DNA of 64,000 bases from Paramacrobiotus metropolitanus (Eukaryota > Tardigrada > Eutardigrada > Parachela > Macrobiotidae): contig NW_026570260.1 in the NCBI RefSeq assembly GCF_019649055.1, forward strand, positions 558,001 through 622,000, written 5' to 3'. Positions within the stretch are counted from its first letter, which is position 1. Every line of letters begins with the position of its first letter. Under the pieces are notes generated by a model. It saw only the letters and a program-made list of their open reading frames with translations. It did no database searches and was not told the origin of the DNA. Positions 39,395-52,801 of this stretch are shown here, piece after piece. The position numbers were made by a program, and so were the translations under genes.

Positions 39395-42075
39395 TTATAA
39401 AATTGTACATCCTTCCCCACTATCCGTCCGTCGTGTGTAATCCTGTAACTGCATATCTTCCACCGTTGCTCGTTCCGGTACAATCCCATCGGTGTAAATC
39501 CGGTACAGATACACAAAGCGTTCATCGTCCCGCTTCGTGGAGCTACTGTTGCTTGAACGCGTCTGATGCGTGTCGTTCCAGGTATGCATGGCATCGAAGC
39601 CGTACACGGACTCACCGCCGCCGGCGATGCGCATTACCAGCGTCTCCGCCGAGACGACCCGTGCCCCGGCCGCTTTAACCCAAACATCTACCCGCTGACG
39701 GCACGAATCCTGTGATTCAAAAGCCCCGTCCTCACAACATCCCGGCTCCACACTCATTCCGGGAACAACGAGTTTACTGCCCAACTGGATGGTCGAACGG
39801 GAGATGGGCCCGTCGGCCGGATTCTCCACAATGTAGCCCACACGCAGATACCTAAACAGCATCAACTATCGACGAAACCCGCTTCTTTAACAGTTGATTT
39901 CTATCCTACCGAAGATAATTGAGGTGCTTTTTGTTCTCGTGATACGTCATATCCTTGGTATCGATGCCTTTGTTGTAGCTCCAACGGAACATTACAGTCT
40001 GAACGTTAACCGGCCGGTAATTGGGCGGCACCGACAGCAGCCACTGTCGGACACGCTGCATCACCGTCGGGAAGGTCTCCATGCGAGGATTGGAAAAAGC
40101 GCCGCCTTGATCCAACATGGCTGGCACAAAATCAGCCAAACCCACTTCCGCGTGCTGAACCGGGCCCATAATGTAAAAGATGCGGATGAGATTGACGAAA
40201 GTCTCGCGCGCCGACCCCCGCTCCGTCCAGATGGTGCGATCCGGATCCAGCCCTGCACAAAAATAGCAATTAATATAGTTGCCAAGAATTCCTCCGGTGT
40301 CAATTTTGCAATGGAAACACAGTATATGAACAAGGCAGTTAGTTACCGCTGCTGCCCCATTTGATAGGTTGTGTCTCGACCGTGATGACTCGGCCTTGGA
40401 AGGGAATGCTGTTGATGCGGTGCACTACGCCGTCCAGCCGCTCCACCTGGTCGCCGCGGATTTCCGGAAGAACGTTCCGGTAGCCGATCTGCTCAACGAC
40501 CGGCGGGCCAGACGCAGGAGGGCGGAGCTGCGCCCAGAGCCTCAGGCCTCGAATGTAACGATTGTTGGCTTCACCTGTCAAAAGAAACTGACGCTGCTCA
40601 GCATTCATGCCTTGTTGCAAACAACTGTCTGACCCTTTTCGACATTTAGCTATAGAAAAAGATTCAGGCTGAAATATGCAGGCAACGATATCTGCTGTTT
40701 TCACTTTGTTCTGTTGTAGTCACAAATCTCAGGATCGTACTTACATGACTGCATTAAATTCCTTGCAACTGCAGAAGAAACGTAGTCGTATTGTTAGTTT
40801 GCCCTGCTTTTGTTAACCTTTTGCAAGCTAATTATAAAACGATACTTTCTGGAAGTGATCTGTCCAAAAATCGATGAGATATAAAAAGTTAATGGCATAG
40901 TACTGTAATTAAAAGATAGACCTCAAAGTTAATGAAAATGTTGATCCTGTCATCATTCCTGTGTGCTTTTGTGCAGGTGTGTACCATTTGAAGAAACATC
41001 CCATTTTTATCTTTTGTACCTTTTTGCTGCGAGTAATATTTAACAAAAGCACCGATGGTGCATCCTCTGCGTGCTGTGCGAGATGACATCACCTCCTCCA
41101 CCAAACAGCAGTGAAGCCGGCTCTATTCAAGTCCCGCTGACGTCATACTGTTCGCCAATCAGCGACTGGTCACAGCTCTCAACGCTATCAATATCTGACG
41201 TCAGAGCGATCACTGATCTCCATACAATCGAACGTTCTGAACTTCTAATCTATCTACCTTTATTAATATTACTACTTTTTTAATTTTTGAAATTACTTTT
41301 CGAAATACTTGTGCGGTTTTGTACCTAACATTCGTCATAACGGATAACATACAGTACTGTTTATTGTTCAATACAATATTTACTGCAAGTTAATCAAACA
41401 GCTATGTACATGTACTAGTTGCTACCGTGCTACATACTGAAAATTACGACATTAATTTAGACAAAAAGGGTAAAAATACAGTATATATATATATGTACAG
41501 TATATATATTTATCTCCATCACAAATGAAAACTACAGAAGTTTGCTACAAACTGGCATCAAAATAAAATGTGCTGTACTCGTGATGCAGTGTGCGTTACG
41601 AGCCGGAACGATGGGATAAATTCTTGCTAAACGATGAAAAATCAGTACTTATTCCTATCAGTCTCGCTGCATTCTACGAGTTCCCCGCTGCATTCTACGA
41701 GTAGTCTAGAGACTCTAGACTCAAACTTTGCAGCTGACACAGTCATAAGTATTCTACCATACCGTATGCCGTGAAGACGGATCCCACCGTGTCGATGTTG
41801 CGTCCGCGGTCGAAGGCCCGAAACTCCACGCTCTCGCATGTGCTGACGGTCCAGTGGGGGTTTTGGCGAAGGAAGGCGTTGGCGCGATCCACGAGCAGGC
41901 TGAAGGACTCGTACTCGGGACGGTTGGAAGGGCCGTCTTCGGCCGTCATGCGCGGCAGAAAATCCATCGCTTGCAGACCGATGCCCGTCAACGGCTTCGC
42001 CGGCCCCGATCCTGATGCTTCCCCGTAGTCTGGTGGGGCGTCGGAATACGCGGGAGGAGCACGAGCATGCATCAT
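39395..42075 (-). CDS. Tandem-family member A, PPxY protein of unknown function, 4 exons, 446 aa
   Basis: Exons are 42075-41763, 40574-40347, 40252-39910 and 39851-39395, with junction phases 1, 1, 2. The N-terminus is Pro/Tyr-rich with two PPxY motifs (PPAY, PPDY), followed by the family blocks GLQAMDFLPRM, STCESVEF, NNRYIRGLRLW, VITVETQPIKWGS, DPDRTIWTER, ETFPTVMQRVRQWLLSVPP, VNVQTVMFRW, YHENKKHLNYLR, SRSTIQLGSKL, GGGESVYGFDAMHTWND and RIYTDGIVPE. There is no signal peptide or membrane segment, so it is probably cytosolic. I do not recognise the fold or family. PPxY motifs usually bind WW domains, such as those of Nedd4-type ligases. Intron 1 (1,188 nt) is much longer than in B to E and holds no supported gene. 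It is divergent from B. Confidence 0.8.
41479..41510. repeat. TA-rich simple repeat in intron 1 of member A
   Basis: Two runs of alternating TA are separated by a GTACAG word. It is a short microsatellite within the long first intron. Confidence 0.6.
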
Positions 42076-42766
42076 CCTTACGGGCTTTGGTCAAACCGTC
42101 AAAAGTGTTCAGACAGGTAGATATGTGATCCTTATCGCGTGGATGCCCCTATGCTCGCTTTGGATGTTGGTTGAACTTGGTTCTATACGATGCAGAAAAA
42201 AATTGCAACAATTCCGGTGCAACTGATGATTCAAATGCTCCTCAGACTACGAGGAAGTATGCATCATGGGTGCTTGGAAAAGGGAGGAAGAATGGGAGCG
42301 ATTTGCGTCAGTGCAATTTATGATTCAAATGAAATTCATGAAAATGACAACATACGTATTACGTGATAGAGTGCGCCCGCATTCTGTATAGTAACTGGCG
42401 CTTAAGAGCGGTCGCTAACGCAATAGGATTATGGAATCGGAAATCACATACGGTTAGAATTTAGATTGTTAGTAAGTTAAGTCATGAACGCGAACTTTTT
42501 GCCACTTTTATGATTTTATCCTTGGTTTTACCATTTTTTGGTAGCCATGGTTAATTTCAACCGAGCTCCCTAATAGTCTAAGTGAAGTGATCAATTCCAA
42601 TCATTTCAATATGATTTCATCTTCCTAAGGATAGGTGCGAATTTACGAGGAACAACTCTACAACCCACACTCCCCAGCGCTAATTCTCATTTCTGTCTCT
42701 GACGCGAGTTTCGATAATCTTGCGCGCTCAGCTTGTGGAGTGAACCGATCGCACATCGACGCGGCC
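42076..42766. promoter_or_regulatory. Shared divergent promoter region of members A and B
   Basis: The start codons of A and B are 691 nt apart on opposite strands, with no supported ORF between them. Both promoters must lie here. I see no clear TATA box or operator-like repeat. The frame open upstream of the B start has no ATG. Confidence 0.5.
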
Positions 42767-44609
42767 ATGTATCACTATGCCAGCGCTCCTCCTGAGTACT
42801 CCGGCGCCCCGCCAGACTACGGGGTGGCGACGGGGTCCTCCCCCGCCCCCCTGACGGCGGTTGGCCTGCAAGCGGTGGACTTCCTGCCGCGCATGACGGC
42901 GGAAGACGGGCCCTCCAACCGCCCCGAATACGAGCAGTTTGGTGTCCTGGTCGAGCGGGCCAACCGCTTCCTGCGCGACAATCCCCACTTCTCCGTCAAC
43001 ACCTGCGAGAGTGTGGAGTTTCGCGTCTACAATCGTGGATACGAAATCGACACGGTGGAGTCTGTCTTCACTGCTTACGGTACGTTGTGAGACTTGTGAG
43101 TCGAGTTTCGCTTTAACACCCCTGATTCCAATTAAATTTTTTTTAATACTGTATATATTTTGTTTTTGGAAATTGAGCTAGTTTAAGTTTTCATTGTATA
43201 AATTATTGCTGAAGTGTTAGTATCAGTTTCACTCAGCATGTACACTACTAACACCAGTGGTATGGTCATACTGATACGGTTTACAATGTCATTAGAACGT
43301 AATCTGACGCATGTAACAGACCTCCAATTGGCACTTAATTCGTATAGACGGTATAGTTGTAGCAATGCGTCCATTCAGAACCTGTGGATAACAAAGTAAA
43401 ATTAATATGAGAAATGCTGTACAGCATTGAGTTGCAGGGGAAGCGAACAACCGGTACATCCGTGGTCTGCGTCTGTGGACGCAGTACCGGCATTCGTCGA
43501 TGCCGGCGAGCGAGCCGGAGCAGATCGGCTACCTCAACTTCCTCCCAGACATTCAGAACAGTGAGCTGGTGGAGCGACTGGACCACGTGGTACAGCGCAT
43601 CAATCGAACCCCTATTAAAGGAACGATCATCACGGTGGAGACACAGCCGGTTAAATGGGGCAGCAAAGGTGAGCCGACAATGCAGCTTCGACAGTTGCAA
43701 GCTCTTGCGGACATATTCTGGTGAGTATGCAAATATTACCTTTCCATAGCATTGGACCCAGACCGCACAATCTGGACGGAGCGGGGTTCCGCCAGTGAGC
43801 GCTTCGTGAATCTCATTCGTATCTTCTACATCCGCGGTCCCGTCGAACAGTCACAAGTAGGTTTAGCGGATTTTGTGCCGCAGAAGCTGGAAGATGGCGG
43901 CACTTTTTCCAACCCACGCATGGAGACCTTTTCGACCGTGATGCAGCGTGTCCGGCAGTGGTTGCTGTCGGTTCCGCCCAACTACCGCCCTGTCAACGTT
44001 CAAACAGTAATGTTCCGTTGGAGCTACAATAAAGGCGTCGACACCAAGGATATGATGTACCACGAGAACAAGAAACACCTGAATTATCTTCGGTTGGCTA
44101 GAAATCTGCGTTAAGCTTTCACCTTCTGTTCACACATGCTGCTTTTTAGGTTTTTGCGGGTAGCATACGTTATAGAGAAACCGGACAGTGGTCCTGTGTC
44201 ACGTTCAACCATCCAGTTAGGTTCCAAACTGATTGTTCCAGAGATGGCGCAGCAACCAGGGTTTTTCGATAAGGGCACGTTTGAATCTCAGGAGTCGTGT
44301 CGTCGGCGTGTGGATCAGTGGGTAAAAGCGGCGGGGGCGCGCGTCGTCTCGGCAGAGACGCTGGTGATGCGCATCGCCGGTGGTGGAGAGTCCGTGTACG
44401 GCTTCGATGCCATGCACACCTGGAACGACACGCATCAGACGCGTTCGGGCAACAGTAGCTCCACGAAGCGGGACGATGAACGCTTTGTGTATCTGTACCG
44501 GATTTACACCGACGGGATTGTGCCGGAAACCGGTGGCATGGTCAGGGAATCGCGGTTAGAGAACTATACGACACAGACGGATAGCGGCGAAGGTTGTGCG
44601 ATTGCCTGA
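42767..44609 (+). CDS. Tandem-family member B, PPxY protein of unknown function, 4 exons, 448 aa
   Basis: Exons are 42767-43079, 43438-43668, 43750-44092 and 44150-44609; phases 1, 1, 2 as in the other members. ATG 42767 is the first Met in the frame. PPEY and PPDY motifs lie within the first 20 residues. The blocks GLQAVDFLPRM, NTCESVEF, NNRYIRGLRLW, DPDRTIWTER and FRWSYNKG are kept. From KAAGARVV to TDGIVPE in the last exon, 67 of 68 residues equal member A, and the DNA is nearly identical over 44388-44520, which is far closer than the first exons. An AATAAA signal lies at 44797-44802. No transmembrane segment is seen. Function unknown. Confidence 0.82.
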
Positions 44610-45432
44610 TATTTTCGCGTTATGTTTGAGAATCTTCGTTATTCATGCGTGCTTTCTCCAGGTTTTTTGTGGGCTTTTTTTGCTAAAATTATACAGACCA
44701 ATTGCACCCAATGACTAGCTGCGTTCTGGTTCAAAATGTTTTATTTGTAGTATATAAACGTTCCATATAATTATGTGATCCGCGCTGGCTTGTGCTAATA
44801 AAATTAATTATGTGATTATCTCAGTTTATTTGAACCGTCTGCTTAACAATTTATTACATTTTCTGGAAACTGAAGAATTTTACTGGTTTGTTACCGTAAG
44901 TAATAAAATATGCCAAAACACTTCGCTGGTGTATGGGAATTCTTCTGCGCTTTTGTATACGCTCTCGCTCTGGAATCTCGCCGAAATAATAATAATGTAG
45001 ACATCCGACAGCTGCGCCTGAACGGCCCTGGAGCCAGAAAGTTAAAAATATTAACTGCATTCAGCTTTATTGTTACCCTAGGCAGGTGCATACAGCCTAT
45101 TAAAAGTTTTGAATTCGGGACGAGGCCTTATACTGTAGTACCAGGCCTAGGCCTCCTCAGCTTGAGTATTAGTTACGTTAATTTGCTTTTCACCGCTCGG
45201 CACACAGCTGATCCAGATTCCATCATTCCACCCTACTAGATTGATACCTGCCTGAATACGTGACTCATTCATTAAGTTCGGACAAAGCATATCATCATCC
45301 TTTTTTTTCTTCCGACAACGCACAATTATCGCAATCAGTTTGGACTACAGTATAGTCAAGAAACGTTTCTCATCACCGCGAAAATTGACATTACGGAAAT
45401 TTGACATCTTTCGTGCAACCGAACATCGAGCG
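44610..45432. other. Spacer between members B and C
   Basis: It contains the B polyadenylation signal (44797-44802) and an ORF at 44910-45239 (+) with two weakly hydrophobic stretches. The ORF has no homologue among the other family spacers and no splice support, so I do not call it a gene. Confidence 0.45.
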
Positions 45433-47355
45433 ATGCAACAGTACTACCCCAGCGCTCCTCCCGATTATCCGGGCGCCCCACCGGCCTACGGGCAGGCAAC
45501 GGGATCCTTTCCCGCTTCTCTCACAGCCGTTGGTCTGCAAGCGGTGGATTTCTTGCCGCTCATGACAGCCGAAGACGGCCCATCCGACCGCCCCGAGTAC
45601 GAACGCTTCAACATCCTGGTCGAGCGGGCCAACCACTTCCTGCGCGACAATCCCCATTGCACCGTCAATACCTGCGAAAGCGTGGAGTTCAGCGTCTGCG
45701 ATGGAGGATGGGAGATCGACACGGTGCAATCAGTCTTCGTCGCTTACGGTACGGTATAAACTTCCATCCTAAGAGTTCGCTTATTCACTATATAATCCAT
45801 GACTGGTAAATGCAATGAGTAGTCTGCAGTTTGAATTACTAGTAACGATAAGGAGACCCGACGCGTTGCAGGGGACAGCAACAACCGCTACATCCGCGGT
45901 CTGCGCTTGTGGATACAGCCGCGGAGCACGTCAGCAGCAGTGAGCCAGTTCGAGCCCGATCAGATCGGCTACGTGAATTTCCTCCCCGATATTCAGCGCG
46001 ATGATGCGCCGCAACGATTGGACATCGTTCTTGAGCGCATCAACCGCACGCAGATCAAAGGGAGAATCATTACGGTGGAGACGCAGCCCATCAAATGGGG
46101 CAACAGTGGTGAGCCAACACAGATGTCGTTTCTCGTTCTAGTCCCCGTGTCTGCAATTTTGCTTATCGTTGAGTGAGCAAAAGATATTTTCGGGTTTTTA
46201 TTCTGTTATTTCATACCCGTATAGAAATCTGTTTTTCCCTAGCACTAGATCCAGATCGGACGATCTGGACGGAGCGGGGCATGGCAAGAGATCGTTTCAT
46301 TAATCTCGTCCGCATCTTCTACATCCGCGGCGCCGTGGAACACTTGCAGGTGGGCTTGGAGGATTTTGTACCGGCCGTCCTGGAGAAGGCCACCGCCTCC
46401 TCCAACCCGCGCATGGAGACCTTCCCGATGGTGATGCAGCGCGTCCAGAAGTGGTTGTTATCGGTGCCGCCTCACTTCCGACCCGTTAACGTCCAGACGG
46501 TCATGTTTCGCTGGAGCTACAACAAGGGCATCGACACCAAAGATATGACGTACCACGAGAACAAGACATTGCTCAATTATCTCCGGTTAGATGGAGAAGC
46601 CGCTGTTAATATTTTAGATTTGTAGATTTGTTAGGTTTTGTCCGTCGTCTTATAGATTTCTGCGGGTGGCGTACGTCATCGAGAACCCGGACAGCGGTCC
46701 CGTATCGCGTTCGACCATCCAGCTGGGCTCTAAACTGATGGTTCCGGAGATGATTCAACAACCGGTGTTCTTGGATCAGGAGGCTGTTGCCAAACTGCGC
46801 CAAGCCGCGCATGATGCTGCCGCGGCATCGAAAACTGCCGCCTTCGAATCGCGGAATGCTTCGATAAAATCCGGCGAGACGGATTTGATATCCTTGGAGG
46901 CTGCGTTGAAATCGCAGGAGTCCGCCTTCACGATGCAGCAGGTTGCTTTGAAAGCGCAGGAGGCTGCGTTTAGACTACAGGAGTCTGTCACACGATCGCA
47001 GAAGGGCGAGTTTGAAACGCAGGAATCATGTCGTCGGCGGCTGGATGCGTGGCTAAAGACGACCGGGGCAGGCGTCGTCTCGGTGGAGACGCTGGTGATG
47101 CGCATCGTCGGTGGCGGGGAGTCCGTGTATGGCTTTGATGCTATGCACACCTGGAACGAGATGCACTTGTCGCTCTCGGGCACTCGCAATTTAACCAAAC
47201 GCGACGATGAGCGTTTCGCGTTGATGTATCGGATTTACACCGACGAAATTGTGCCGGAACCTGGTGGTACGGTGGCGAAATCGCGGTTGGAAAACTTTAC
47301 GATCTATTCTGGTAGCGGGGAACGTGATTACGCTAAATTCTCGCACAAATCGTGA
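45433..47355 (+). CDS. Tandem-family member C with inserted heptad-repeat block, 4 exons, 531 aa
   Basis: Exons are 45433-45748, 45872-46108, 46243-46585 and 46656-47355; phases 1, 1, 2. PPDY and PPAY motifs are at the N-terminus, and all family blocks are present (for example NNRYIRGLRLW, DPDRTIWTER, VNVQTVMFRWSYNKG). It is 83 residues longer than B. The extra residues lie in exon 4, between QQPVFLDQ and ETQESCRRR. The block begins Ala-rich (AAHDAAAASKTAA) and ends in six Gln-centred heptads (46903-47028), which should form a coiled coil. The exon 3 length (343 nt) equals that of A, B and E. Two residues of the otherwise strict RIYTDGIVPE block differ little (RIYTDEIVPE). Function unknown; the coiled coil may let this member multimerise. 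Confidence 0.82.
46903..47028 (+). repeat. Six tandem 21-nt units encoding Gln heptads in member C
   Basis: Consecutive heptads read ALKSQES, AFTMQQV, ALKAQEA, AFRLQES, VTRSQKG and EFETQES, each with Gln at position 5. The single FESQES segment at the same place in A and B corresponds to the last unit, so the block looks like an expansion of that unit. Confidence 0.75.
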
Positions 47356-47832
47356 AGGATATCCGTTATCTGCATCATGCTTCGTTGACTTTCTTGCCGG
47401 TTTTTTTGGCAGCGATCTGCTAAACTATTCATTCTCTTTTTGAGATGTTTCATTGAATTTTTATTTTTTTTCCAGCGTATTTTATAATTCAGTACACTGC
47501 CTTCCGGTGAACGGTTAAAGCGGATAGTTTTTAATTGTGCTCGATAGTATTTAGAAAAAATCGAAGGAACGTATACGGTATACGTGACGTATACGTATAC
47601 TTTCTAGTAGGAATATAAATAAATCATTGATAGCCGTTGCTTTATGTGATGAAGTGTCATAAGTCATTATTGTTGATGTTATGTTGTTACGTTGTATTTT
47701 AGTACGAAGTAGAAATGCGGAATTAAACCCAGAGTAAAACTACTTCAGTATACAATGTGAGCTGAAACTACAACATGTGCAATAATTACTACATGATCCC
47801 TTAAAAAAACCTTTTGGTAGCTAGACACGTAT
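47356..47832. other. Convergent 3' spacer between members C and D
   Basis: AT-rich, with an AATAAA-like signal for C near 47617. A run of TATACGT words occurs around 47575-47600. No supported ORF is seen. Confidence 0.5.
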
Positions 47833-49840
47833 TTAGGAAATGGTGCACAAATCACCACTGTGCACTGGCGTCGCGTAGGCGTGCCGCTGGGTATCGTGAA
47901 TGATCACCGGCTGATCCGGGACGATTCCGTCCGTGTATATCCGGTACATATAGACGAAACGTTGATTGTGCGTGTGACTGTCGGAGTGCGGCAGGTGTAC
48001 GTTGTTACAAATGCGCATGGCGTCCCCATCGTTGACGGTCTCCCCGCCGCTGACCATCGGCATGAGCAGTGTCTCCACCGCCACGACACGTGCACCGGTC
48101 GCTTGCACCCATGCGTCCAACCGTTGTCGGCACGTGTCTTGTGATTCAAACGCCCCGACTCCGCAAAATCCGTGCGATGGCAGTACCCGAGGAGTGAAGA
48201 GCTGGCTGTCGAGTTGGATCATCGACCGGCTCAGGGGGCCGGTGGTGGGGTCTTCGACAATGAATGCCACGCGAAGATATCTGCAACCACAAAAACTGGC
48301 CGATAGTCTTGTGTTCAGGTTGCAGCTCAAGTCGGTAATCTTTCGTTTGTTCGCATTCCACAAACAAGTGCTTCATGGAAAAAGGGAAAAGATAAAGTTG
48401 CGTACCATGTGATTAACATACGTACCAGCTGCGAGGTTGTATGAAATTTACTATACCGAGACGCGTCAATTTATGCGTAGGTTAGGCATAAGTTTAAGTT
48501 CTTCCAGGATTATTAGGTGTATTTCACAAGGAAACGTATTTTGGAAAAAGCGTTCAAAGTACACGTTTACAGAATGTGGTGGATGGTACAATAAATTCGC
48601 TGAGGGTTGACCACTGTCCACTAAGTAGTACTTGTGTAATACCGGTATTGCTTTTGATACACTACTAACCGCATATAATTCAGATGCTGTTTATCTTCCC
48701 GGTACGTCATGGCCCACGTGTCGAATTTATTACCGCTCCCTCGGAATGCTACGGTCTGGACGTTGACGGGACGGTAATTGGGCGGCACGGACAACATCCA
48801 CTCTCGGACACGCTGCATGACGGCCGGAAAGGTCTGGGTGTGCGGGTGCGAATAATCGTCACCACTGGACGGAAGGAAGTCTTTCAGTCCCACCTGGACG
48901 CGCTGCGCGGGACCGCGGATGTAGAAGATGCGCACCAGGTTGAGGAAGCGTTCTCGCGTTCCGCTGCGCTCGGTCCAAGCAGTGCGATCGGCGTCACAAT
49001 CTAATGGTCAAGAAAAATTTATCGAGATTACCGGAACTTATACTAATCTTTATCGCCCAGGAATTAAAATCAGTTAATCACAGAAATTACAACGTCACTG
49101 ATATGGTAATACAATTCTTCACATATGTACAAATATTTGAAAACTTGCTTTCATCGAATTACCTTTGCTGCCCCATTTGACGGGTTGCGTCTCCACCGTG
49201 ATGATCGTCCCTTTGACAGGCTTGCTGTTGATGCGTTGCAGTACGCTGTCCAGTCGCTCCACCGAATCGTCGTAGTTGATTCTCGGAAGGAAGTTGAGAT
49301 AGCCGATCTGCTGGGCGCCGGTAATAGTAGTAGCAGAACACGAGCTGCGGTGCTGCATCCACAAGCGCAAACCGCGGATGTACCGGTTGTCGGAATCGCC
49401 TACGAATTACAAGACTATCTGGATTCAAAACGATACGCTTACAATAAAGTGGCATGATCTTTCAGCAATAAGAAATCATTTTCCCAATAACCATGCTTGT
49501 GGTTAGGCGCCACCCGTCATTTATTTTATCGGAACTAACCGTAGACAGTAAAAGCCGATTCCACCGCATCGATATCGTATCCCTTACTGTACACCGGAAA
49601 CTCTACACTCTCGCAGGTGTTGACCGCCCAGTGAGGATTATTGCGGAGAAACACACTGGCTCGCTCTGCGAGCACGTTGAAGGACTCGTACACCGGGCGA
49701 TTGCACGGCCCGGCCACTGCCGTCACCCGCGGCAGAAAATCCACGGCCTGTAGACCAGTGGTCGTCGGCGGCGATCGCATGACGAGCCCGTAATCCGGCG
49801 GGGCGTCCGTGTAAGGGCGGGATGCGCTAGCATGTTGCAT
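47833..49840 (-). CDS. Tandem-family member D, most divergent copy, 4 exons, 438 aa
   Basis: Exons are 49840-49540, 49399-49163, 49000-48670 and 48280-47833; phases 1, 1, 2. It keeps GLQAVDFLPR, NTCESVEF, NRYIRGLRLW, ITVETQPVKWGS, SVPPNYRPVNVQTV and RIYTDGIVP, but has only one PPxY motif (PPDY). It departs from the family consensus at several otherwise strict sites: DPDRTIWTER becomes DADRTAWTER, FRWSYNKG becomes FRGSGNKF, and GGGESVYGFDAMHTWN becomes SGGETVNDGDAMRICN. The frame is fully open, so it is not an obvious pseudogene; it may have a changed role or weaker constraint. Confidence 0.8.
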
Positions 49841-50730
49841 GAGGGGGTTGCAGTGTCTGGAAGATAATCAAGGAGCGTGGTAGGTTTACGCAATGCTGTC
49901 GAAGATAGTGATGTGCCGAAATGAATTTCCATCCCAGTGCAGCAGGGAGCAAGTGGTATTCTACAAGCGAACATAATGACTCGGATGTTGCTCATTAATG
50001 TCATGCGTCATACAATGCTGTGAAAGTGGGCCCTTCGATTGTCTGCGCTTGCGTCGACTAAATATGTTTGCAGTTTGGCATTTCCACGCAAATGATATCA
50101 TCGTATTGCAGCCACGACAGGGTCATACGGTACCGCAGTGTCTGGGTATGTCAGTGTGCCATCTATCGATCGATTTACGCGCTATGAATCTCTAAATACT
50201 GCACAGTAGCTCTAACCAGATACCAGTACAGTACATAATAAGCCATTCCCGTATCACTTCAGCATGACGCTCAGTTTAAAAGCAATGAGCAAGAAACATT
50301 CATTATTGGATGTTTCTTCATTTTACCATGTAGCACCGCTCGCAAGCGTATTTCGGGGTTACTGTAATAAATAGTCATTGACTTATCACTTAAACTAAAC
50401 AAAACATCAGCGAAATTCTATTCGATAGTAGCTAATAAAACCAAAAAGCGTTTGCGGTCACAGTATCTGTCAATAAAAAATCTAGACCATAACAACAATT
50501 AAAATCCTATTTCTTTTTCACAAAAAGGTGTAGTTTGAAGATATTACGTGCAAATAATATCTATAATAATACTGCAATTTCAAAAACGTAGACAGAAAAA
50601 TGACAGACCCAGAGGATAACGATACGACAATTTGCTGAAGCAGCGGCGACCAAAAACGGGCACCAAAACACGTTACATGCTTGCGTTAAAATCCATTCTA
50701 CAGATTTCCGTGTCACACAGACTGACCTTG
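49841..50730. other. Spacer between members D and E
   Basis: It should hold the D promoter and the E 3' UTR. No supported ORF; short frames at 49998-50195 and 50561-50746 have no features. Confidence 0.5.
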
Positions 50731-52801
50731 TTAAACAATGGGGCACCCGGCACCATTCTCCATCTCCCTCGTGTCATCCGGCTCGGTTCGTATCTCCCTA
50801 ACTTCCGCCACCATTCCGTCGGTGTAGATCCGGTAGACGTACATGAACTGTTCATCCTCCCGAACCGTCCGACTACTGGTGCGCACGTGCACCTGGTGCG
50901 TGTCGTTCCACGTGTGCATGGCATCCATACCGTACACGGCCTCGCCGCCTCCGGCCACCCGCATCACCAGCGTCTCCGCCGCAACAACCCGCGCGCCGGC
51001 TGCCTTCACCCATGCGTCTACACGCTGACGACAGGCCTCTTGTGATTCCAAGACAATCTCGTCAAAAAATCCCGTGCGCGGAACTCGCTGGGGAACGATG
51101 AGTTTGCAGCCCAGCTGAATCATCGACCGCGATATGGGACCGTCGGCGGGATCTTCGGTTAAATAGGCCACGCGAAGAAAACTGTAAATTGAAATAATTT
51201 TCAAGAATGTTTAGGTTTATAACTACGACTACTTTTATAAATGAATGATCTCTGACCGCAAATACACCAGCTGTTTTTTGCTCAGACTGTACGTCATATC
51301 CTTCGTGTCGAGCGCTTTTTTGTCGTTCCAGCGGAAACTGACCGTCTGAATGTTAATTAAGCGGTAGTTAGGTGGCACCGATAGCAGCCACTCCTTGGTC
51401 CGCTGCATGACGGCCGGAAAAGTCTCCATCCGTGGCCGCGCAGAGCCGCCCGCGCTATCCAGTCTAACCGGCACGAAATCCATCACTCCGACTTGCGCAT
51501 GCTGCACCCGTCCCCGGAGGTAAAACATGCGAATAACCTGGACGAAACGCTCGCTAGTCCATGTACCTTCCGTCCAGATAGTGCGTTCCGGGTCGAGACC
51601 TGAAAAATAAACCACCATGATTGCGGAAACGTAGCTCTGCGGACGGCAGGACCCTACCGTTACTTCCCCACTTGATAGGCAGCGTTTCCATTGTAATGAG
51701 CTGGCCTTTGATTGGATCGCTGTTGACGCGATGAAGGACGCCGTCCAGTCGCTCCACTTGGTCAGCCGCGATCTGCGGCAGGAAGTCTACGTAACCAATC
51801 TGGTCGGGTTCAGTCTGGTTGGCAGAAACAACGCGCTGCGTCCACAAGCGCAAGCCGCGGATATAACGGTTGCTGCTCTCTCCTGCAAACCGAAATCATA
51901 CGTTTTGGCCGGCCTTAATCATACATTATGGATGCATTCCAAAAATCCAAACCAACTAACGATAAGTAACAAAAATTCGAAAATAAGACGCTAAATTAAA
52001 TGAAAATTAATAATTATCTAAACTAACATAATTAATTAGCTAAACTAACATAATTGTTATACTTTTCCCCCATTTGGTGTATAAATACCAATAATAATAA
52101 AACATTACCGCGTATAAATTCTATACCTCTATACCTCAAAACTGGAGAGGAATAAATAATTCAATATGCTGCGGTACCCATCCAACAAGCATTTGCACGC
52201 ATTTAAAAGCGTTAAACATGGGGGCGTGTTGCAACGAGTACAGTATATGTCACTGTTTCCGTTACTGTTACCAATTTACCATAGACGGTGAAGAGCGACC
52301 ACTCCTTGTCCACACTACGACCCCGCTTGTGCACCCGCAGCTCCACACTCTCACATGTGTTGACGCAGCATCGCGGGTGCTGGTGTAGGAAAGTGTTGGC
52401 GCGCTCCACTAGTACACTGAACGGCTCGTATTCCGGATAGAATCGCGGAGTTGAACGGCTGCAGATAAAGCGCTAATGCCACCAGTTCTTCATATAATTC
52501 CGTACCGTATTCAAATTTTGCTGTCTGAATGAAAATTATAATTATGCAGTCTATCGAACCAAAGTTCGAAGACGGCATAATTATAGTGTATATCCAGACA
52601 GCAAAACTTTCTAACTAAAGTTAGAAAGCTCTTCGGATCTCATGCGTACCCGGAAGGACCGTCGTCCCAGTCACCCGCCAACATCCGCGGCAGGAAATCC
52701 ACCGCTTGCAGTCCCTCACCTACGAGCGGTGCGGCATTCCCGTAGACCGGCGGATCCTCGGCGTAGGGCGGTGGAGGCGCGCTGGGGCACGGCTGATCCA
52801 T
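50731..52801 (-). CDS. Tandem-family member E with an extra intron in exon 1, 5 exons, 449 aa
   Basis: Exons are 52801-52650, 52458-52280, 51882-51658, 51599-51257 and 51181-50731; phases 2, 1, 1, 2. The last three junctions match those of A to D. The first junction is unique: it splits the segment equal to GPSNRPEYE of A and B, giving GPSG from one exon and RSTPRFYPEYEPF from the next. The 191-nt intron (52649-52459) is largely made of two inverted repeats. PPPY and PPVY motifs lie in the first 20 residues. Family blocks GLQAVDFLPRM, NTCESVEL, NRYIRGLRLW, DPERTIWTE, SRSMIQLG, GMDAMHTWND and RIYTDGMV are present. Function unknown. Confidence 0.8.
52516..52606. mobile_element. MITE-like inverted repeat inside the extra intron of member E
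   Basis: Arms 52516-52551 and 52571-52606 share TTTTGCTGTCTG at the tips and TATAATTATGC further in, with a diverged stretch between. The centre forms its own hairpin (TCGAAC/GTTCGA). It codes for nothing. Target-site duplications are not clear by eye. Confidence 0.6.
52607..52628. repeat. Perfect 9-bp stem hairpin next to the MITE-like element
   Basis: CTTTCTAAC and GTTAGAAAG flank a 4-nt loop (TAAA). It abuts the larger inverted repeat and lies in the same intron. Confidence 0.75.

Follow-up and report, generated by a model that had tools for sequence, protein, structure and literature searches.

Five paralogous genes, A to E, lie at positions 39395-52801 of the window, the analysed stretch of 64,000 nucleotides (nt) from the tardigrade Paramacrobiotus metropolitanus, which is part of contig C40 (positions 558001-622000). 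It was found that these genes belong to a family dispersed over the genome, the modelled members of which consist of four homologous units and mostly end in a membrane-anchor signal, and part of which carry PPxY motifs. We tentatively propose that the proteins could be adaptors tethered to a membrane, which would recruit ubiquitin ligases of the WW-domain (NEDD4-type) class for ubiquitin-dependent sorting; this is a plausible reading that we would not yet call probable. An earlier note on this DNA (the original prediction) mentioned neither the four internal repeats nor the PPxY motifs, nor some 23 additional genomic places. An anonymous gene cluster has become a family with a testable layout of repeats, membrane anchor and WW-docking motif.

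Four-repeat body of the proteins

The window genes are splice-model predictions read from genomic DNA, for which a splice aligner was written. Each modelled protein was found to be composed of four homologous units of about 80-110 amino acids (aa), or ~90 aa; the units of gene B are listed in Table 1. The repeat profiles, built from alignments containing at most 21 members, were compared by hhalign. All six repeat-repeat comparisons scored 39-73; among the controls, column shuffling (60 for each pair) gave no score above 12.1, and reversal none above 10.6. The four units are mutually homologous.

Genome-wide distribution of the family

The genome (169.8 Mb, 533 contigs) was searched in six frames using exons 2, 3 and 4 of gene B, the intronless C12 member, exons of C211_55k and C4, and exon 1 of C23_1108k as the queries. 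The family was counted by us at ~28 places, the search counts being lower bounds: the five window genes, two genes and an exon-1 fragment on C126, six places on C23, two each on C211, C3 and C40 outside the window, and single places on C515, C52, C12, C94, C319, C4, C64 and C39. Hence, the five-paralogue cluster of the original prediction is real, but it makes up only a part of a genome-wide family.

Twenty-two members were modelled over the four-repeat body, and the counts given below refer to these models. Beyond the window, exon boundaries are predicted ones, and several of the models there begin at repeat 1, with uncertain N-termini. The counts omit C515 (first part outside the piece of DNA extracted around it), C52 (partial, with an internal stop), C94, C126_305k (exon 1 only), and C40_417k and C39 (divergent, with uncertain ends). 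Introns of 41-51 base pairs (bp) in five models (C23_1108k, C23_998k, C3_950k, C319 and C4) are probably artefacts of the aligner. Single open frames were recorded for C12, C3_2222k and C23_998k, the last without its 41-51 bp model intron. The introns of the C211-type members occupied positions different from those of the window clade. The most divergent member, C64, has a phase-1 intron at query position 181 in common with the window clade, and therefore the gene structure of the family looks old.

Some of the places were additionally characterized. C94 and C319 (stretches L014 and L015) had 521 of 522 bases equal over one exon and probably represent two haplotypes that the assembly retained. 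Both C39 (L028 1104-2615) and C40_417k (L029) were very divergent. An isolated C126-type exon 1, C126_305k (L030 1160-1509), was accompanied by no convincing further exons in 5 kb and is likely a gene fragment.

Putative C-terminal anchors

A C-terminal CaaX signal was found in four of the window genes (CTIL in A, CAIA in B, CTIS in D and CPIV in E), and gene C ended in SHKS. A Cys residue at position -4 was present in 16 of the 22 models, against 0.35 expected by composition and a maximum of 3 in 2000 draws, an expectation that serves as a yardstick and not as a probability, since related sequences are not independent. C64, truncated in this count, ended in CSVM when completed, bringing the CaaX total to 17. 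All of these but C12, which had F, carried I or V as the a2 residue (16 of 17). The C-terminus of C515, outside the 22 models, was CTIL.

Three C23 members ended in a transmembrane segment, with a best 19-aa hydropathy of 2.75-3.03 and values <1.0 elsewhere in the same proteins. In a tree of 23 rows (the 22 models and C515; midpoint root, long C64 branch), they formed one group with a support of 93/87, just under the star of the tree program, nested among mostly CaaX relatives. Therefore, CaaX is probably the older anchor state. Since 20 of the 22 models ended in either a CaaX signal or a transmembrane tail, the cytosolic location assumed in the original prediction is probably wrong.

PPxY and P(S/T)AP motifs

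The window proteins contained PPAY and PPDY at the N-terminus of A, PPEY and PPDY at that of B, PSAPPDY and PPAY in C, PPDY in D, and PSAPPPPY and PPVY in E. An N-terminal PPxY was present in nine of the 22 models (A-E, C126a, C126b, C211_82k and C3_950k), and three others (C23_998k, C40_395k and C319) had a PPxY in the linker between repeats 3 and 4. The N-terminal and linker sites were mutually unaligned. C211_55k contained a PPxY outside both of these regions. The P(S/T)AP motif was found in five models, and in four of them (C, E, C211_82k and C40_395k) it overlapped or abutted a PPxY.

The host genome contained three loci of the prenyltransferase beta-subunit family PF00432 (on C5, C45 and C18) and 61 exon-level matches to HECT; the host thus possesses such enzymes and ligases as the proposal requires.

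Structure and divergence of the gene cluster

The five complete genes of 438-531 aa in mixed orientations were all open at the place given by the original prediction, in the order - + + - -, and all of their introns were GT-AG (Table 1). The predicted arrangement of four exons with phases 1,1,2 was correct for A-D. Gene E, however, had five exons, and the same phases followed downstream of one added phase-2 intron inside exon 1. The length of exon 3 was 343 nt in A, B, C and E, as predicted, and 331 nt in D. The end of exon 1 of gene E was placed by the aligner at 52683, and 52650 was chosen by us.

Table 1. Coordinates of the modelled genes and associated features (window positions, unless a stretch is named)
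Feature	Position	Strand	Details
Gene A, 446 aa	39395..42075	-	exons 42075-41763, 40574-40347, 40252-39910, 39851-39395; splice model
Gene B, 448 aa	42767..44609	+	exons 42767-43079, 43438-43668, 43750-44092, 44150-44609; splice model
Gene C, 531 aa	45433..47355	+	exons 45433-45748, 45872-46108, 46243-46585, 46656-47355; splice model
Gene D, 438 aa	47833..49840	-	exons 49840-49540, 49399-49163, 49000-48670, 48280-47833; splice model
Gene E, 449 aa, five exons	50731..52801	-	exons 52801-52650, 52458-52280, 51882-51658, 51599-51257, 51181-50731
Added phase-2 intron of gene E, 191 bp	52459..52649	-	
Repeat 1 of gene B, residues 32-122	42860..43490	+	spans intron 1
Repeat 2 of gene B, residues 132-212	43518..43841	+	spans intron 2
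Repeat 3 of gene B, residues 217-307	43854..44183	+	spans intron 3
Repeat 4 of gene B, residues 314-422	44202..44528	+	inside exon 4
Transmembrane-tailed C23 paralogues	L006 3848-5500, L006 7371-9541, L007 1002-3332		first with interrupted exon 3

The added intron of gene E harbored a 40-nt inverted repeat, the arms of which (52513-52552 and 52570-52609) were 83% complementary and 17 nt apart. A transposon or introner origin of this intron was considered and set aside: the genome yielded no second copy, a 126-bp query hitting nothing beyond its own sequence and reverse arm, and a repeat family was not shown.

In gene C, an in-frame open stretch of 225 bp (46786-47010) was excised as a GT-AG intron by the splice aligner. 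The stretch was rich in Ala, Ser, Glu and Gln and was either a coding insert or an optional intron; in the latter case the product of gene C may be 75 aa shorter.

The pairwise nucleotide identity of A-D was 63-76%, pointing to homology far beyond chance, and the ratio of nonsynonymous to synonymous divergence (dN/dS) was 0.14-0.19. Purifying selection acts on these genes. The synonymous divergence (dS) between A and B was about 1.0, and A-D are old duplicates.

The sequence blocks that had been described as strictly kept proved to be good signatures, but each varied in at least one paralogue. NNRYIRGLRLW began with DNRY in D and SNRY in E, RTIWTE was RTAWTE in D, and VNVQTV was INIQTV in E; ITVETQPxKWGS ended in KWGN in C and read ITMETLPIKWGS in E, and RIYTDGIVPE was exact in A and B only.

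A tract in exon 4 of gene A (39489-39658, minus strand) differed from gene B (44343-44512) by 8 mismatches in 170 columns, whereas the remainder of exon 4 showed 33% mismatches (about 67% identity) between the two genes. Such a near-identical tract makes gene conversion between the inverted copies likely.

As had been stated in the original prediction, ordinary genes surround the cluster. Ten open frames from the flanking DNA were compared with Pfam, and the matches included exons of the enoyl-CoA hydratase (PF00378), WD40 and IBR-domain types.

Searches against known families

The family could be assigned to no known family, in agreement with the original prediction. No usable Pfam match was obtained for 12 whole proteins (A-E, C12, C3_2222k, C23_998k, C64, C211_82k, C23_1112k and the raw C39 frame) or for 19 single repeats. 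The same was true of NCBIfam and PHROGs, searched with six members each, and of the PDB sequences, searched with B, C64, a six-member profile and the repeat profile. The weak names returned from Pfam, NCBIfam and PDB (ANATO, BppU-like_C, Tox-PL-2, RecX, AMPK beta, TetR, acylphosphatase and others) were attributed to chance, the best E value being 0.046.

A prokaryotic or viral origin was also considered and rejected, as the searches of GTDB, IMG/VR, PHROGs and phages gave nothing confirmed. With alignment A1, one peptide pattern gave 80 pattern matches in GTDB and two peptide patterns gave 105 in IMG/VR, of which none were confirmed, these scans being sensitive only to relatives that keep the short patterns. 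A tblastn search of phages, in which the C12 member was the only query, found no relative.

The family was absent from the titles and abstract openings, among the matches listed, of the literature on tardigrade gene families and prenylation, PPxY/CaaX proteins, the P. metropolitanus genome and GyrI/SOUL proteins, which is weak evidence that it is unpublished. Similar unnamed invertebrate proteins may exist.

Proposed function and alternative explanations

The proposed adaptor function would work as follows. Prenylation of the CaaX signal would hold most members on the cytosolic face of a membrane, and in one group the transmembrane tail would substitute for it, as if membrane attachment itself were selected. 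The PPxY motifs, present outside the repeats in about half of the members and joined to P(S/T)AP in four, would attract proteins with WW domains; the most plausible partners are HECT ubiquitin ligases of the NEDD4 family, with TSG101 as a further possibility. The four-repeat body might select a cargo or a ligand, and the high copy number would allow the paralogues to specialise on different cargo.

Several observations weigh against this proposal. Ten of the 22 models had no PPxY at either the N-terminus or the 3-4 linker, among them C64 and the three transmembrane-tailed members; therefore, recruitment is not a universal job of the family. A PPxY anywhere was found in 16 of the 22 models, compared with a mean of 1.4 and a maximum of 8 in 2000 shuffles, but this number takes in the homologous PPNY within repeat 3, which is shared by descent and was kept out of the N-terminal and linker counts. 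The motif controls, like the expectation for the Cys residue, treat related proteins as independent. Further, gene C and C23_1092k had neither a CaaX signal nor a transmembrane tail, and no convincing anchor was found when an alternative tail of C23_1092k was sought. One of the transmembrane-tailed members, C23_1108k, contained a stop in exon 3, bypassed in the model by a 49-bp intron, and is a possible pseudogene; both of the others were intact in the model. The cargo-selecting role of the body is the least certain part and amounts to a guess.

The layout of repeats, anchor and PPxY is also compatible with a ligand-binding function, in which the proteins would be membrane-tethered binders of small molecules or lipids, the four beta-alpha-beta-beta repeats pairing into two GyrI/SOUL-like barrels. 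By eye, the repeats follow a strand-helix-strand-strand pattern, and one Arg in the final repeat segment was invariant in 19 of 19 aligned repeats (picked from eight members). However, hydrophobic moments of the expected class were obtained for three of four helices but for only 5 of 12 strands, and no usable match was obtained in Pfam for 12 whole proteins or 19 single repeats, or among the PDB sequences. We regard this ligand-binding reading as unlikely. It would be distinctly unlikely that the genes represent a widespread unnamed animal family, present elsewhere as a single-copy orthologue and merely amplified in this tardigrade; the old-looking gene structure, with the intron common to C64 and the window clade, speaks for this, as would similar unnamed invertebrate proteins, whereas no match to a named Pfam family was found for 12 whole proteins or 19 single repeats.

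This DNA very probably comes from a tardigrade that tolerates desiccation, as Paramacrobiotus sp. TYO is so described in PMC8277472, and the equation of TYO with P. metropolitanus is our own link. The family is also expanded in this host, and it might comprise membrane-associated structural or protective proteins of anhydrobiosis unrelated to ubiquitin, the PPxY being incidental or serving another WW partner. Proteins of the CAHS type are disordered, however, and the repeats of A-D, to judge from their dN/dS, are strongly constrained; we consider such a protective role quite improbable. The joined P(S/T)AP and PPxY motifs, together with the membrane anchor, would also suit ESCRT or vesicle-budding factors, in which PSAP and PPxY would serve a membrane-bound multimer as late-domain motifs. 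This composite, however, occurred in only four of the 22 models, and no viral relative was detected in the IMG/VR scan, in PHROGs with six members or in the phage search with one member, so that a budding function seems very improbable.

The adaptor proposal can be extended to an undescribed animal fold of four tandem units, amplified to >20 genes in one tardigrade as a membrane-tethered set of ubiquitin-ligase adaptors, in which the anchor (from lipid to transmembrane) and the PPxY position (N-terminus or inter-repeat linker) were rewired between clades, when the body and mostly the membrane attachment were kept. In this full form we regard it as rather unlikely. The family may possibly constitute a new system. 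The anchor swap and the shifting PPxY suggest what selection preserves in this protein family. If these genes do form an adaptor set, a system for sorting membrane proteins has been expanded in tardigrades, with possible consequences for their stress biology.

Comparison with known systems

A possible duplicated beta-alpha-beta-beta unit, recognised by eye, likens the family to the GyrI-like and SOUL (SHS2) proteins, the GyrI-like proteins being duplicated beta-alpha-beta-beta structures according to PMC5684135. However, four units are present instead of two, no match was obtained in Pfam or the PDB sequences, and the moment test was unsupportive.

Phospholipid scramblases have a Pro-rich, PPxY-bearing N-terminus, a compact body and a C-terminal membrane anchor in common with the family. 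They differ in that the present family has four repeats and CaaX, and the 12 scanned proteins gave no match to Scramblase in Pfam. The Cys at -4 with I or V nearly always at -2 resembles CaaX-anchored proteins such as Ras, nuclear lamins and others; however, neither a GTPase nor a lamin match was found in Pfam for the same 12 proteins, and in one group a transmembrane tail replaces the CaaX.

The membrane adaptors of the NEDD4 family (Ndfip1/2, LITAF and the alpha-arrestins/ARRDC) are alike in bearing PPxY outside the folded body and in being attached to a membrane. LITAF has an N-terminal P(S/T)AP-PPxY stretch. LITAF, Ndfip and arrestin had no Pfam match in the 12 whole proteins. Unlike these adaptors, the present family has a body of four tandem repeats, and its usual anchor signal is CaaX.

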